61,807 nt of DNA from a virus: positions 1-61,807 of IMG/VR virus record IMGVR_UViG_3300042549_003657; one strand, given 5' to 3'. The number at the start of each line of letters is the position of its first letter. The first letter of the stretch is position 1. The translations under genes were made by a program, and so were the position numbers. Positions 29,522 through 35,145 of the stretch are shown piece after piece. The notes under the pieces are model-generated. The model did not search any database and had not been told where the DNA came from. It saw only the letters and a list, made by a program, of their open reading frames with translations.

Positions 29522-30508
29522 TTACTCGTCGTCCCAGTCACTCACCATGTCAGCAAGGGTACTCTTGCCTTCCACAGCGGGCTTCTTAGGCGCTTCTTTA
29601 CGCACGGCAGGTTCTTCGACTTCTTCCGGCTCCTCAACTACCGGAGCAGGTGCTGCCTTGGCCTTACGTGCTTTCGGCGCTGCAACTGCGGCAACTTCTT
29701 CATCCTCTTCCTCAACTGCAGGAGCGGGTGCAGGGGCAGGCTTGACCTTAGCAGGCGGTTTACCAGCCAGAGCTGCAGGAGCCTCGGGCGCTGCGTCCAT
29801 CTTAGCCACGGTCATCGTGATGGCCTTGAGGGCGTCGTCAGAAGCGGCTTGCTGCTCAACGATCTCGTACTCCTCATCGCTCAACCAACGCATCGCCTTG
29901 AAGTGCAGCTTGGGCGACTCGGACTTGGTGTCGAACTTCATACGGGTAACGACTGCCTCTGGGTTGATGCCTTGGGCCACCAGCCACCGAGCATACTCTT
30001 GCAGTGGGCGGTTATCCCCCTCGGCTTTCCCGAATATCGACGTAGCGGGCAGGGCCAACTGCAACACATCACCACTGATGTCGTTCTCAAGCACCACAGC
30101 CAGACGCTGTTGATAGCGGCAAGCGCGGCTGTTACCTTGGCCAGAGCCTGCGATGTTCTTGGGGCACTCAGCGCAGCGGGATGCCTGGGGGCTGGCTGCC
30201 TCGGAGCTAGGCTTGTCGCCGTCTGCTGACCAGCAGTCAGGGCCGGACACGGACTCAGCGTCATAGCTCTTCATGTAGAACACGCGGCTGACCTTGGAGG
30301 CTGCCTTGACCATGACGATGTCCAGGTGCCTGTCCTCGATGTTGGCAACCTCCTTGCCGCCAGACATCAAGCGGAACACGCCGCCTTTAATAGAGACACG
30401 CTTGCCACCGGCAGCGCCGCCAGCGAGTGCCTTGGCCATGTCCGACAGTTCACCCTTACGGGCGAAGGCTGGGACGTTGGATGGGTTGAAAACGGTTACG
30501 TTGCTCAT
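29522..30508 (-). CDS. Putative ssDNA-binding protein with acidic tail
   Basis: This 328-residue protein starts MSNVTVFNPSNVPAFARKGE. The core (about 40-225) contains a Cys cluster (SGPDCWSADG, then SRCAECPKNIAGSGQGNSRA) that may bind zinc. A low-complexity Ala/Pro/Glu linker follows, and the extreme C-terminus is STLADMVSDWDDE, an acidic-aromatic tail like those SSBs use to recruit partners. It sits between primase/helicase and SNF2 helicase genes. The ssDNA-binding role is inferred from tail and context. Confidence 0.62.
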   Translation of the reverse strand: MSNVTVFNPSNVPAFARKGELSDMAKALAGGAAGGKRVSIKGGVFRLMSGGKEVANIEDRHLDIVMVKAASKVSRVFYMKSYDAESVSGPDCWSADGDKPSSEAASPQASRCAECPKNIAGSGQGNSRACRYQQRLAVVLENDISGDVLQLALPATSIFGKAEGDNRPLQEYARWLVAQGINPEAVVTRMKFDTKSESPKLHFKAMRWLSDEEYEIVEQQAASDDALKAITMTVAKMDAAPEAPAALAGKPPAKVKPAPAPAPAVEEEDEEVAAVAAPKARKAKAAPAPVVEEPEEVEEPAVRKEAPKKPAVEGKSTLADMVSDWDDE

Positions 30509-30666
30509 TGTTGTTCCTCCTTAGTGTTTGCTGCGGCTTCTTCTTGTGTACGGGCTTGTGCGATAAGCGTCTCGATCAGGCCGCTGACTTCAGCGTAAGG
30601 GCGCTGTGCCAAAGCGTTAAGCAAGACCTGGGCTTGCTGCTGGGTGAATGTGAAGTTCATGTTCAT
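30505..30666 (-). CDS. 53-aa small phage protein
   Basis: This short ORF starts MNMNFTFTQQQAQVLLNALA and ends ...AAANTKEEQQ. Its ATG overlaps the upstream stop (ATGA at 30663-30666), and its TGA overlaps the ATG of the SSB-like gene, so it is coupled on both sides. An alternative ATG at 30660 gives 51 residues. The MNFTFT...QAQVLLNALAQRPY pattern recurs in small phage proteins of unknown role. AAGGAGG within its last codons serves as ribosome binding site for the SSB-like gene. Confidence 0.72.
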   Translation of the reverse strand: MNMNFTFTQQQAQVLLNALAQRPYAEVSGLIETLIAQARTQEEAAANTKEEQQ

Positions 30667-31079
30667 TTTGTGGGCTTTCTTACGCTGATCGCGTACTCAG
30701 AGTTACTGTTAAGTCCGGGTGGAACTACCCCGGGGTTATCTCTCAGGAAGGACGCCATGTTGGTCTGCGCGATGCGCTTTTCCAACAAGTCAATCGCATC
30801 GTTCTCAATCATGAACTGCCCAAGCGCTTCCCAGTCCTGGGTCGAGTAGCGCGTCTTGGTTGATAGGATGACGACCCCCTCCGCCGTGTTAACTGACTTG
30901 AGCCCAAGAGCCAGCATTTGGTCTTTGAGCGCCGTCTTCACAGCTTCTTGCTGTGCTTTGAGCGTCTCGACCTCGGTCTCGTAAGCCGTCGTCAGTTCTT
31001 GAATCCGGGCCTGCATCTTGCGATACACCCGGGCCAGCTTGTCCATAGGGATGCTGGCGGATTCGATGTCTTGCGTCAT
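30663..31079 (-). CDS. Conserved phage protein with N-terminal coiled coil
   Basis: This 138-residue protein starts MTQDIESASIPMDKLARVYR. Residues 12-60 form a predicted coiled coil (ELTTAYETEVETLKAQQEAV). A compact region follows with LGLKSVNTAEGVVILSTKTR and YSTQDWEALGQFM, ending LNSNSEYAISVRKP. The N-terminal coiled coil with small C-terminal domain loosely recalls Gam-type nuclease inhibitors, but I would not assign that. AGGAGAG precedes the ATG. Confidence 0.72.
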   Translation of the reverse strand: MTQDIESASIPMDKLARVYRKMQARIQELTTAYETEVETLKAQQEAVKTALKDQMLALGLKSVNTAEGVVILSTKTRYSTQDWEALGQFMIENDAIDLLEKRIAQTNMASFLRDNPGVVPPGLNSNSEYAISVRKPTK

Positions 31080-31160
31080 TTTTCTCTCCTGTCCTTAGTC
31101 TTTATTTGTCTAACCTTTGACAATCATAGCCGTAATTTTGCGGCCTGTATGCCCTCTTTT

Positions 31161-33593
31161 TCAACTATTTTTAACCTCGCTATCGAACATGTCGACGAGT
31201 AGTGCGTGGTCACTTACCTTGGACGCCATAGCCTTGAACATCTTTTGCTCGATGGGGCTACTTTGTATATGCACCACAGTCACTTTGTCGGAGTTCTGCC
31301 CCTTGCGGTCGGCTCGCGCAATACATTGCAGGTACATCTCAACGCTCATCAGCGGGCCATAAAACACTACCGTGTCGGCAGCAGTCAGCGTGATCCCGTG
31401 TGCCGTCGCCTGGGGCTGCATGACCAAGACCTGAACATTGGGCGTGTGCTGGAAGTCGTTGATGATCGCCCCTCGCTTTGTCGCGCTCACGTCGCCGTGA
31501 ATCTGCGCAGTCTTGACGTTATTCTTCTCCAGGTACGTGGTGATCGTGTCGATACTAGAGCGGAACATTGCGAAGATGATGACCTTGCGGTTGGTCTCCT
31601 CGATGACCTCCATCAAGACTTTAAGCCGTGCTGAGGCATCGAATTCCACAATCTCCTTGTCGTCTGTGATCGCCGATCCGCACGACACCTGCAAGAGCTT
31701 GCTGACCATCACGCCCGCATTCACTGCGCTGATCGTCTCGCCGGCAGCCTGCACCAGCATCTGTTCCTTGAGCAGCTTGTAGTACTTCGTCTGCTGCGGT
31801 GAGAGCGCGACTTCGCGGGTGACTGTCGTGACGGGTGGGAGATCCAGGCACTGCTCCTTGGTGAACCGGATGGCGGGCTGCAAGACCTCGTGCACCAGCT
31901 TCTTGGACTCTGGCTTGGGTGCCCACTTGAACTGCGTGATCTTGTTCATCACTTTGTCCCGCCATGCCGTGTAGAACTTCGGCACACCGTTGGGGTTCAC
32001 CAGCTTGGCCAGACCGTAAGCGTCCACAGGCGACTGCGATGCAGGTGTTCCCGTCATCATCCACAGGTAGGTGTGCGGATGAATGATCGACTGCAGGGAC
32101 TTCCAGCGCTGTGTCGTGGGGTTCTTGTATGCGTTGCAGTTGTGGACTAGCCAATGATTCCCAACAAAGTAGTTAGGTGTTCCTTCAACTTCGAGGTTGT
32201 ATACAGGCTCCCCGTTTGGGCATTCGATATACGAAACACTTTCCACCCAAGCTCCGCCAGCTTGGCTTCCTTCTTCCGATCCTGCGCTTGCCGCGCTAAC
32301 AGGGTGTGACTGCCCCCGTCCACTTCCAGCCCCACTTTGAGGTGCGGCCACGCAAAGTCGAGCTTGTAGTTCGTAGGAAAGCCTTGCTGCCTCTTGCCCA
32401 ACGCTACTGGGTAGTTCCATGCCCACCCCACAGGTAAGACCTCGGAAATCAACTGTTCCATCGGCGTCATGCCCGTACCGTTCCCCCCGCGCACAATCGG
32501 CTTGTACCCGTTGGCTTTCGCTACTGCTGACAACTTCGCCCGATGTTCTGGCGTCTTCGGCCCCGACGTTTTCCCCCGTTGATCCGGCAAAATATGGTTG
32601 AAGTAGCTGGCTCCGGGATTCATTAGATGCCACCTCTTCCGTGCGCAAGATCTGGAACAGGTAACCCCAGTCGGAATCCCCTTCGATAGAAACCAAAGCA
32701 TCTGCGCTTTTTTGCGGCGGTATTCCGTCCCGCAAACGGGACAGCTCAGCGCCAGATATAAGCCGTCTTCCCGCAAGATTTTTGGCGCATACCCAACCGA
32801 CATCAGTAAAGAAGGGATGCTCAGGGGTACACCGGACGATTTTGCCGTTTCCAAGTTTGACCTCAACCAATTGCGTAGCAGTGTTGCGTACAAGTCTTTT
32901 TATACGCATTACTCCGTCAGAAGTCAAGACCGCGTCCCCGGCTTCTAGCTGTTCAATCGGGCGTCGCCCCTGCGGGGTGGACACTAGCGTCCCTGCTACA
33001 AAGCACTCATCAACAATGATCAGATCGAACCGGCCATCGTTGAGCACCTCGCGGTTGATAAGGTTCAGCCCTTCATAGTTGGTGATGACGAACTCATAGT
33101 CCCCCTGCACCAGTTCTATTCTGCGCGAGGCTTGCGCATGGTGGGCTACGACAGCGCTGCGGTGCATCACCGAGTTCATGATGTCCCCCATCCAGGCACT
33201 GTGCATGATCGACAGCGGGCACAGTATGAGCACGCGACGCACTTCACCCCGCGTCATCAGGTAGTCAGCCGCCCACAGCGCTGAGAGGGTCTTCCCGGTC
33301 CCAGGTTCGTTGAAACAGAAGGCTCGGCGGTGCAGCGTCAGGAACGACGCGGTGTCTACTTGGTGCTCCATCGGGCGGTAGCGCCCGGGCCAGTTGTACT
33401 TGCGCGTGATCGGCGAGAGTACCTTCTTGACGCCCAGGTTCTTGAGCACCCGCATCTCGTCGAGGCCGAAGAAAACAGCGACGGTGTAGCCGCCATTGCC
33501 GTGATCCTCAACGATGCGGCTCTTGGGTATTACGGTGTACTTCGCAGGGTTGCGCGTCTTGATGAGCACAGCCTTGTTGTCCAGAATCTCCAT
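31161..33593 (-). CDS. SNF2-family (SF2) DNA helicase/ATPase precursor, intein-containing
   Basis: This 810-residue precursor contains about 521 host residues and a 289-residue intein. Helicase motifs: Walker A FNEPGTGKTLSA (K101); motif II LIIVDE | CNAYKN, split by the intein after E196; motif III TGTPASQSP; and motifs V/VI GITLTAADTVVFYGP and QCIARADRKGQ near residue 770, typical of SNF2/Rad54-like helicases. Splicing should restore VDECNAYKN, and without it the ATPase site would be disrupted. It probably acts in replication or recombination. The gene follows a small HNH-like gene by 1 nt. Confidence 0.9.
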   Translation of the reverse strand: MEILDNKAVLIKTRNPAKYTVIPKSRIVEDHGNGGYTVAVFFGLDEMRVLKNLGVKKVLSPITRKYNWPGRYRPMEHQVDTASFLTLHRRAFCFNEPGTGKTLSALWAADYLMTRGEVRRVLILCPLSIMHSAWMGDIMNSVMHRSAVVAHHAQASRRIELVQGDYEFVITNYEGLNLINREVLNDGRFDLIIVDECFVAGTLVSTPQGRRPIEQLEAGDAVLTSDGVMRIKRLVRNTATQLVEVKLGNGKIVRCTPEHPFFTDVGWVCAKNLAGRRLISGAELSRLRDGIPPQKSADALVSIEGDSDWGYLFQILRTEEVASNESRSQLLQPYFAGSTGENVGAEDARTSGEVVSSSESQRVQADCARGERYGHDADGTVDFRGLTCGVGMELPSSVGQEAARLSYELQARLCVAAPQSGAGSGRGQSHPVSAASAGSEEGSQAGGAWVESVSYIECPNGEPVYNLEVEGTPNYFVGNHWLVHNCNAYKNPTTQRWKSLQSIIHPHTYLWMMTGTPASQSPVDAYGLAKLVNPNGVPKFYTAWRDKVMNKITQFKWAPKPESKKLVHEVLQPAIRFTKEQCLDLPPVTTVTREVALSPQQTKYYKLLKEQMLVQAAGETISAVNAGVMVSKLLQVSCGSAITDDKEIVEFDASARLKVLMEVIEETNRKVIIFAMFRSSIDTITTYLEKNNVKTAQIHGDVSATKRGAIINDFQHTPNVQVLVMQPQATAHGITLTAADTVVFYGPLMSVEMYLQCIARADRKGQNSDKVTVVHIQSSPIEQKMFKAMASKVSDHALLVDMFDSEVKNS
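32139..33005 (-). mobile_element. Intein in helicase motif II
   Basis: The intein spans residues 197-485 of the helicase precursor. Block A is CFVAGTLVSTPQGRRPIEQL with Cys1. Block B is VRCTPEHPFFTD, with TxxH at T256 and H259. Blocks F/G are VYNLEVEGTPNYFVGNHWLV, then H484-N485 followed by +1 Cys486. All catalytic residues for class 1 splicing are present. The in-frame middle (about 290-445) is Ser/Gly/Ala-rich with no LAGLIDADG or HNH signature. The endonuclease is instead in the +1 frame. Insertion at the most conserved active-site motif is typical of inteins. Confidence 0.93.
32147..32893 (-). CDS. Nested EDxHD (Vsr-like) homing endonuclease, +1 frame within intein
   Basis: This 248-codon ORF lies wholly inside the intein coding DNA, one base out of frame with the helicase. 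It has a Cys4 finger (C51-P-V-C54 and C79-SRS-C83), a NUMOD3-like motif (SGPKTPEHRAKLS, about 110-122), and a C-terminal Vsr/EDxHD nuclease fold: TPMEQL (E146), NYKLDFAW (D179), GLEVDGGSH (E190, D192, H196) and WKVFRISN. The first available start is TTG at 32893, just after an in-frame stop; the first ATG is codon 31 (32803). Initiation there or frameshifting from the intein frame are both possible. The TAG stop is 8 nt before the intein end. Confidence 0.85.
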   Translation of the reverse strand: MYATLLRNWLRSNLETAKSSGVPLSIPSLLMSVGYAPKILREDGLYLALSCPVCGTEYRRKKAQMLWFLSKGIPTGVTCSRSCARKRWHLMNPGASYFNHILPDQRGKTSGPKTPEHRAKLSAVAKANGYKPIVRGGNGTGMTPMEQLISEVLPVGWAWNYPVALGKRQQGFPTNYKLDFAWPHLKVGLEVDGGSHTLLARQAQDRKKEAKLAELGWKVFRISNAQTGSLYTTSKLKEHLTTLLGIIG

Positions 33594-33594
33594 C

Positions 33595-33834
33595 TTATTT
33601 CCCGTTATCGCTCACGTTAGCTTTCGGACTGCGCAGGCGCAGGTTGCCCTTGGTTGTCTTGCCCCCAGCGCGCAGCGGCTTGATGTGGTCGATGTGCTTG
33701 CCCGTGCGGTCTATGCCGGCCTTGTCGTAAGCTTGTCGAGCCTTCTGGCGCTCAAGCTGATCCTTGGTCTCGCCACTGGCCTTCTGCAAGGCGTAGGCAT
33801 GCTTGAAGTCGCGCTTACCATTCTTCTGGGTCAT
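33595..33834 (-). CDS. Small HNH-like nuclease protein
   Basis: This 79-residue protein starts MTQKNGKRDFKHAYALQKAS and ends with an HNH-type core: GKHIDHIKPLRAGGKTTKGN then LRLRSPKANVSDNGK. The HIDHIKPLRAGG and N-L-R pattern corresponds to the beta-beta-alpha metal finger of HNH nucleases. It has no extra specificity domain. It lies one base upstream of the intein-bearing helicase and overlaps the next gene by 20 nt. It could be a resolvase-like nuclease or a reduced homing nuclease. Confidence 0.75.
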   Translation of the reverse strand: MTQKNGKRDFKHAYALQKASGETKDQLERQKARQAYDKAGIDRTGKHIDHIKPLRAGGKTTKGNLRLRSPKANVSDNGK

Positions 33835-34057
33835 CTTTCAATCCTTTACTTACGTGTGCCAAGTTGTTGAGGGTCTCGATGTCAGGAGCGAATCGCGTTA
33901 GCAAATGCTGCAGAAATAAAACACGCTCTGCTTCAGCGGCCGCTAACATCTGGCTAATATCCTTTGCGTCTAGCGTCACGCACGAAATGCGGTAGCCCAG
34001 CATGCTGCCGCTAACATTCAGGTCTAGCTGTGTTCCGTCTGTCAGGTGAAAACGCAT
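33815..34057 (-). CDS. 80-aa hypothetical protein
   Basis: This protein starts MRFHLTDGTQLDLNVSGSML. An N-terminal beta segment is followed by a helix (DISQMLAAAEAERVLFLQHL) and an acidic C-terminus. No family is recognised. It overlaps the HNH-like gene by 20 nt and follows the Cas4-like gene by 9 nt. Confidence 0.6.
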   Translation of the reverse strand: MRFHLTDGTQLDLNVSGSMLGYRISCVTLDAKDISQMLAAAEAERVLFLQHLLTRFAPDIETLNNLAHVSKGLKDDPEEW

Positions 34058-34066
34058 TTGCTGCCC

Positions 34067-34738
34067 CTAATGTCTAGGGTTAAATTCACACCCCGTCACT
34101 TGGCACCAGCGGCACAGCGGCGTCTGTGTGGGGTTCCATACATTGTTTGCAAAGCTGTTCTCAAGGCGGGCGGTTCGTTCGCGGTATTTCCACCACGCGG
34201 CATCGGCCTGCTCACGCATCATCTGCATCTTCACCATCGTCTCTTTGACGATGAACAACAGAGCGCTGTTCACTTTGCGGATGTGCGGGAAGTGTGCGAA
34301 CACCATGATCGACATGAGCACCAACTGATCTCTGTCGGGGTAGCGGTCATTGCCCGTCTTCCAGTCACCCACCCAGGCCACAAGCCCGTCATCATCCACG
34401 ATCAAGATGTCGGCAATGCCGCGCACCCACACATCTGGAGCCTTCCAATCGCAGGACTGTAGCTGTTTGTTCAGCGCCATCTCATGCTCGGCCAGCTTGC
34501 GCCCAGGCTTCTTGAGAATCGCGTCCACCACCGCCTGGAACTGCGCGTAGGCGGGCGGTATTGGCTTGTTGTCCTTGATGTACTCCTCCAGGGCCTTGTG
34601 CACCTCCACGCCGTAGCGTGTGGCATCGGTCTCTTGGAACGGGTACTTGCCCAGCACCTTGACCTCGTGATACCGCCGCGCACAGCCTTCGTAGTCCTTC
34701 AGCGCGCTGTGCGACCACCGGATGATTTTTTCAGACAT
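34067..34738 (-). CDS. Cas4/RecB-like PD-(D/E)XK nuclease with Fe-S cysteines
   Basis: This 223-residue nuclease has the motif-I helix GVEVHKALEEYI (about 43-54), VRGIADILIV (D110) and AWVGDWKTGN (D125-x-K127), then YPDRDQLVLM with the conserved Q. Four cysteines, C19 near the N-terminus and C209, C212 and C217 at the C-terminus (PLCRWCQVTGCEF), match the 4Fe-4S ligand pattern of Cas4/AddB-type nucleases. It probably processes DNA ends in recombination-dependent replication. No CRISPR array or cas1/cas2 is nearby. Confidence 0.88.
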   Translation of the reverse strand: MSEKIIRWSHSALKDYEGCARRYHEVKVLGKYPFQETDATRYGVEVHKALEEYIKDNKPIPPAYAQFQAVVDAILKKPGRKLAEHEMALNKQLQSCDWKAPDVWVRGIADILIVDDDGLVAWVGDWKTGNDRYPDRDQLVLMSIMVFAHFPHIRKVNSALLFIVKETMVKMQMMREQADAAWWKYRERTARLENSFANNVWNPTQTPLCRWCQVTGCEFNPRH

Positions 34739-34862
34739 TGGCCGTCTCCCTCGATGCGAGCCAGCAGTTCCACAACATCTTCACCAGCGTGCTGTCCCAG
34801 GCTACGCCGTGCGGGACACCGCTCTCGATACTGCACACCCACTGCTTGAACTCGTCGCTCAT
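34731..34862 (-). CDS. 43-aa Trp-rich small protein
   Basis: This short ORF reads MSDEFKQWVCSIESGVPHGV, then AWDSTLVKMLWNCWLASRE, and ends TANV. Four Trp residues in 43 suggest a protein- or DNA-binding peptide. Its 3' end overlaps the nuclease start by 8 nt, and GAGGG lies before the ATG. There is no recognised family. Overlap coupling on one side and near-adjacency on the other support it. Confidence 0.6.
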   Translation of the reverse strand: MSDEFKQWVCSIESGVPHGVAWDSTLVKMLWNCWLASRETANV

Positions 34863-34863
34863 G

Positions 34864-35145
34864 TCATTCCCTCGCGCTGTTGATTGCTTCGTTGAGGAGC
34901 TTTGCAAACTGCGTCACAAACTTCTCGTCGTTGTACAGCTTGTGCTGCATCTCATGCAGAACAGCGTGGGTCATCTCATGCCAGAACGTCTCGGATACGC
35001 TCTCTTCAGCGCGGTTCTTTGTGTAGATGACGATGGCCTTGGTGCCGTAATAGATCGCCCCGTACTCGCGGCCCCTGTCCTCATTGACGTAATGCACTTT
35101 GTACGGCGAGGCACCTACTTTGAAACTGCTTGGTTTGTATTGCAT
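34864..35145 (-). CDS. SprT-like zinc metallopeptidase-type protein
   Basis: This 93-residue protein starts MQYKPSSFKVGASPYKVHYV. GGAG about 6 nt before this ATG makes it preferable to a start 48 nt upstream, which would overlap the polymerase gene. The core is TFWHEMTHAVLHEMQ: H56-E57-xx-H60 forms a zincin site like that of SprT/Spartan-type proteins. The family acts on DNA-bound proteins in some systems. It is compact and lacks a C-terminal zinc ribbon. It sits immediately downstream of the DNA polymerase. Confidence 0.72.
   Translation of the reverse strand: MQYKPSSFKVGASPYKVHYVNEDRGREYGAIYYGTKAIVIYTKNRAEESVSETFWHEMTHAVLHEMQHKLYNDEKFVTQFAKLLNEAINSARE

Follow-up and report, generated by a model that had tools for sequence, protein, structure and literature searches.

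Fractured host genes, in which the nuclease lies between the halves of a split intein, were reportedly described by Dassa et al. in 2009. In canonical homing inteins, nuclease and intein are made as a single fusion protein (review PMC3943268); for fractured genes, PMC12350094 cites split inteins accompanied by an EDxHD endonuclease that stands on its own. The ShiLan domain of a phage DNA methylase, described as actively moving, carries an HNH nuclease out of frame (Arsenault et al. 2025, PMC11855218). These two systems, the fractured split inteins with their separate nucleases and ShiLan with its out-of-frame HNH, are the closest precedents of the locus analysed here. For overlapping reading frames, PMC11855218 also cites a preprint on actinobacteriophage inteins of 'non-canonical architecture' (bioRxiv 10.1101/2025.01.02.630785), which, going by that citation, may describe a similar arrangement. 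A sequence-only reading of the locus, made before this analysis, had held its arrangement to be undescribed; this is only partly right because the 2025 paper describes an out-of-frame HNH, albeit in an insertion that is no intein.

The window (the whole stretch of DNA that was analysed, 61,807 nt, from the IMG/VR virus record IMGVR_UViG_3300042549_003657) contains a helicase gene (SNF2-rel_dom 1.3e-20 and Helicase_C 4.4e-17 in Pfam; 1.7e-101 against phrog_62) that is interrupted by an intein (Table 1). Helicase and intein form one uninterrupted frame, with no split into separately translated halves. Judging from the sequence, the intein is very probably mobile and contiguous, with a homing endonuclease encoded by a gene of its own that lies within it in the +1 frame. 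Immediately upstream of the helicase lies a small HNH protein (Pfam HNH, 1.6e-4; window 33595-33834, minus strand).

Table 1. Features of the helicase locus, in window coordinates.
Feature	Position	Strand	Basis or remarks
SNF2/SF2 helicase gene (phrog_62), intein-interrupted	31161..33593	-	810-aa ORF, Pfam, phrog
Exteins of the helicase	33593-33006 and 32138-31161	-	
Intein, 289 aa, at VDE/C of helicase motif II (Walker B)	32139..33005	-	Splicing residues, Pfam, TIGR01445/TIGR01443, Hint fold, intein-less alleles
N-terminal splicing domain, residues 1-95	32721..33005	-	pLDDT > about 90 across most; single-frame codon-position pattern
Linker, mostly disordered in the intein frame, nuclease fold in +1	32259..32720	-	pLDDT mostly 22-48 (intein model) vs mean 85.5 (nuclease model)
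C-terminal splicing domain, residues 250-289, blocks F and G	32139..32258	-	Predicted fold; both frames constrained, intein nt 755-856
Endonuclease ORF, +1 frame, including stop TAG (32149-32147)	32147..32893	-	248 codons from first TTG; likely protein 235 aa from TTG 32854
Putative internal start: GAGG 32864-32861, 6-nt spacer, TTG 32854-32852	32852..32864	-	Codon conservation, SD energy

The splicing residues of the intein are complete, with Cys1 (CFVAGTLV), TPEH as the TxxH motif, a C-terminal HN and a +1 Cys; C1, T60, H63, H288 and N289 are invariant among 47 inteins. It matches Intein_splicing of Pfam (1.6e-10) as well as the N- and C-terminal splicing models of NCBI, and the boundaries that the sequence-only reading had given it proved exact. 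In the AlphaFold model, the 108 residues with pLDDT >=90 lie at both ends and form a confident Hint fold, which Foldseek matched to solved inteins (2lwy, gp41-1 and others), while residues 127-249 stay below 50 nearly throughout, predicting a disordered linker of ~150 aa. As had been suspected, no nuclease was found in frame within this linker. The element is recognised as a Hint splicing element with intein-less alleles at the same site, splicing itself being predicted.

Relative to the intein frame, the nuclease ORF is in +1 (offset 700 nt); it encodes a CxxC...CxxxC finger followed by the motifs YKLDF, LEVDGGSH and LGWKVFRISN. Its product belongs to DUF559 (PF04480, 6.4e-7, 29.7 bits against a gathering cut-off of 20.6), and relatives reach 51 bits. 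The AlphaFold model (mean pLDDT 85.5) matches the catalytic domain of I-Bth0305I (3r3p; Foldseek probability 1.00, TMt 0.68) and also 3hrl, both of which were recovered by profile comparison as well. Across 80 nucleases D140, E151, G154, H157, D166 and K169 are invariant and D153 nearly so, although the positions of D153 and H157 differ in the alignment to 3r3p. The ORF, its Cys4 finger and its Vsr-like character were thus already correctly described from the letters alone; the proposed EDxHD kinship holds for the Vsr-like fold, the nearest sequence family being DUF559, and a NUMOD3-like motif was dropped as it has no Pfam support in the window protein and appears in one distant relative only (0.069). 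We also rejected a group I or group II intron, as the region 30400-35000 gave no Rfam match up to E = 1. In all close relatives the nuclease stops 11 nt before the intein end, counted from the last sense codon. The N-terminal extension of the nuclease, ~37 residues ahead of the first Cys, shows no conservation as protein.

Both frames are under selection. For a stop-codon test we used 29 distinct loci (the window, relatives without close copies and five cultured loci), shuffled synonymously with the nuclease protein kept, and counted intein-frame stops in the nuclease core: 0 were observed vs 178-193 expected, whereas the third frame held 229 vs 182 expected. By these counts the open dual frames are far beyond chance, with the proviso that combined p-values are indicative only because the relatives share ancestry. 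Computed over 18 ungapped inteins for codon positions 1/2/3 of the intein frame, nucleotide diversity changes along the element: 0.178/0.120/0.496 ahead of the nuclease ORF, as for constraint on the intein only; 0.426/0.220/0.230 in most of the nuclease core, as for constraint on the nuclease only, position 1 of the intein being the third position of the nuclease; and 0.205/0.209/0.258 in the part shared by the nuclease and blocks F and G, as for dual constraint. The constraint in both frames that the sequence-only reading had called for is therefore present, distributed over intein-only, nuclease-only and dual segments. Synonymous sites are also suppressed immediately before the first Cys, where start signal and nuclease coding are inseparable.

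The frame relation is conserved among relatives, as should be the case for a +1 ORF that belongs to this family of helicase inteins. Scanning viral sequences with the nuclease returned 31 loci, and all 30 full-length close relatives carry it in +1, with the intein frame open throughout and the third frame broken; the remaining locus (L032) is a fragment that agrees with +1 but is left outside this count. A profile search reached 255 candidates from viruses, of which 80 were kept, and 48 loci from bacteria. Of 73 further relatives from both groups, 71 have a +1 nuclease in a continuous intein frame, among them MAGs whose labels span many phyla. The other two are a stand-alone DUF559-like protein (L216) and a free-standing nuclease of the same family (L192:2782-3435), immediately upstream of an intein-less terminase gene. 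The L192 state could precede or succeed the intein arrangement; a search with this nuclease returned L192 itself as sole match. The insertion sites are mostly DE/C or DE/S of P-loop NTPases, namely helicases, DnaX-like, terminase-like and giant SNF2-like proteins, host names being assigned by motif and partly inferred.

Cultured genomes give the same picture. Forty cultured phage records carry the nested nuclease (37 Vibrio, 2 Corynebacterium and 1 Pseudomonas), and the overlap explains why annotation overlooks it: each of the 40 lists a single gene there (helicase, P-loop, coil-containing or hypothetical). The +1 relation was found at all 8 loci of cultured genomes whose CDS coordinates or reading frame were compared, seven from phages and one from a plasmid of Rhodovastum atsumiense, in which a giant SNF2-related gene (L246:1-7718) with the nested nuclease is annotated as one protein. 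An independent sample, for which 80 inteins were picked by the N-terminal splicing block alone, contained the nuclease profile in 68, always in +1 (68/68), and about 66 of these nucleases are intact. Far from being routinely broken, the +1 frame shows one internal stop, in the nuclease finger of L302, and one reduced element, a 147-aa mini-intein (L280:3501-3941) that has lost the nuclease save for the C-terminal overlap remnant in +1. A nuclease in frame 0 was found neither among close or further relatives nor among the inteins picked by their N-block. Recurrence of the same frame in phages, bacteria and a plasmid therefore shows that the architecture is real and widespread and no oddity of a single sequence.

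The probable start signal of the nuclease sits in the intein codons GTT GAG GTC AAA CTT GGA, within LVEVKLG. In the close family the Glu codon is GAG in 25 of 25 members (p 4e-5), compared with 67% in exteins, and the Leu codon is CTT in 23 of 24 (p 2e-20 vs extein usage), compared with 12% in exteins and 35% (72/204) elsewhere in the N-domain. In L027, the one of these 24 without CTT, and in the DG-type members, an ATG lies slightly downstream, in the form gATGg in the DG-type. The SD energy is -6.3 in the window and reaches -10.6 in relatives, and SD and start together are stronger than in synonymous shuffles (81 loci, an estimate inflated by relatedness). The best-scored start of the window is a TTG with this moderate SD; there is no universally conserved ATG, and several distant members have their best start elsewhere or with a weak SD. 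The upstream TTG at 32893 was rejected, since the ORF of many relatives opens later and TTG 32854 or an equivalent ATG is the start that they have in common. The nuclease thus likely starts at TTG 32854, giving a protein of 235 aa.

The same signal could be read in another way, as a site of +1 programmed ribosomal frameshifting at GAGG...CTT G, which would make the nuclease a C-terminal extension of the N-extein and the N-intein. The layout does recall prfB, with an SD-like stimulator followed by CTT, the near-complete conservation of GAGGT and CTT (25/25 and 23/24) would suit a slippage site, and in most members the +1 frame is open from slightly upstream of it. However, CTT is not followed by a stop codon, distant members place SD and ATG at other points, and the replacement of CTT by a downstream ATG in L027 and the DG-type members fits initiation better than slippage. 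We consider frameshifting unlikely and prefer internal initiation, because of the ATG in the exceptions and because SD and start outperform the shuffles.

Two further explanations would deny the nuclease its status as a nested gene. The standard account of such a frame mismatch is an indel in sequencing or assembly, with the nuclease truly in frame with the intein, but no evidence in support of it was found. Identical offsets in many independent metagenome assemblies, in cultured phages and in a bacterial plasmid argue against it, as does the fact that the nuclease has its own stop while the intein frame runs on into the C-extein; assembly error, which the sequence-only reading had raised against itself, was accordingly rejected and its probability is negligible. 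Alternatively, the +1 ORF could be the relict of a decaying nuclease, the intein alone being functional, and the mini-intein and the finger stop show that such losses do occur. Yet the nuclease frame is the conserved one across the linker, its catalytic-type residues do not vary in 80 members and the great majority of copies are intact, so that decay as a general account is very improbable. A nuclease gene nested in the intein and started internally is the reading that we retain.

Several observations support homing of this element. The 22 intein-less alleles sampled read DE/A at every displayed site vs DE/C in invaded alleles, and the tree requires at least four intein gains or losses. Two pairs of loci, L018/L044 and L016/L041, differ by presence or absence of the intein while their exteins are near-identical, and the inteins of L009 and L015 are 86.9% identical vs 62.8% for their exteins. 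The window and the intein-less L039 are 98-100% identical in parts of either side but 79-91% identical at -300 to +99 nt around the intein, and the last 200 nt upstream of the window intein are 95-97% identical to L003 and L004. The tract around the intein thus looks co-conversion-like and is suggestive of homing, no proof being claimed because the phages are mosaic elsewhere too. Since position +1 is Ala in the empty alleles (L039, L041, L044 and others) and Cys in the invaded ones, the +1 Cys is apparently supplied by the element itself. Empty alleles, repeated gain and loss and the co-conversion tract together lend support to homing.

We propose the following model, in which nested frames, splicing residues, dual selection, predicted folds, the start region, empty sites and the co-conversion-like mosaic are established by sequence analysis, and from which we infer translation by internal initiation, splicing, cleavage and homing. 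Translation of the helicase would yield one precursor, in which both intein ends would form the Hint domains, excise the intein and restore helicase motif II, the ~150-residue middle being a disordered linker maintained merely stop-free. A second ribosome would start at the SD and TTG (ATG in other members) within the LVEVKLG codons and produce a free-standing Cys4-finger/Vsr-like (DUF559) nuclease, its translation ending within the stretch that encodes the last splicing block. This nuclease would then cut intein-less helicase alleles at DE/A, and repair would copy the intein together with a short flank, installing the +1 Cys.

The out-of-frame architecture is not confined to this nuclease. 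Seven of the 80 inteins picked by their N-block (L297, L304, L305, L313, L320, L326 and L328) carry an HNH_3 endonuclease in +2 in terminase-like genes (Pfam 3e-14 to 8.5e-19), and the intein frame of these seven has 0 stops vs about 19 expected. HNH_3 is also found in +2 of terminase large-subunit inteins in three cultured phages, L329 (2354-3028), L330 (2468-2977) and L331 (2144-3058), which are Acinetobacter phage Highwayman, a Rhodobacteraceae phage and Tetrasphaera phage TJE1, where it is annotated as 'terminase large subunit'. The architecture therefore arose more than once. In an ATPase-like gene, another intein holds in its +1 frame a 333-aa ORF (L324:3673-4671) with a weak ROS/MUCR match, possibly a third nuclease class. 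Nesting out of frame is probably a way of building inteins that is general and has recurred: two or more classes of nuclease (DUF559/Vsr-like in +1, for the most part at the Walker-B DE/C of helicases, DnaX-like and terminase-like proteins, and HNH_3 in +2 of terminase inteins) would have become nested independently, with their start and stop signals in splicing blocks, bridging in-frame homing inteins and fractured split inteins. In the window element, one mobile segment would give rise to two separate proteins from overlapping frames, so that splicing and homing could differ in dosage, evolve and disappear independently of each other, while the shared DNA binds the nuclease to the splicing residues. 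Such an arrangement would offer a path to split inteins with free-standing nucleases and a natural test case for the dual coding of two folded proteins.

Compared with known systems, the window element shares with canonical homing inteins (e.g. PI-SceI) a Hint domain, a homing nuclease and insertion in a conserved motif of the host protein; in these, however, the nuclease is an in-frame domain, whereas the window nuclease has an ORF of its own in a different frame. The predicted Vsr-like catalytic fold is common to I-Bth0305I (3r3p) and the DUF559 proteins (3hrl), but I-Bth0305I is intron-encoded and some of its catalytic positions fail to align with the window nuclease, and chromosomal DUF559 proteins stand alone while the window nuclease is nested in an intein. 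ShiLan is alike in that a homing-type nuclease occupies another frame of an insertion through which the host frame stays open, but it has no splicing domain, is no intein and encodes an HNH, whereas the window element has full splicing domains. Finally, the fractured genes likewise combine an intein with a Vsr-like nuclease gene that is no in-frame domain; there the host gene is broken, whereas in the window host gene and intein share a single unbroken frame, which the nuclease overlaps.
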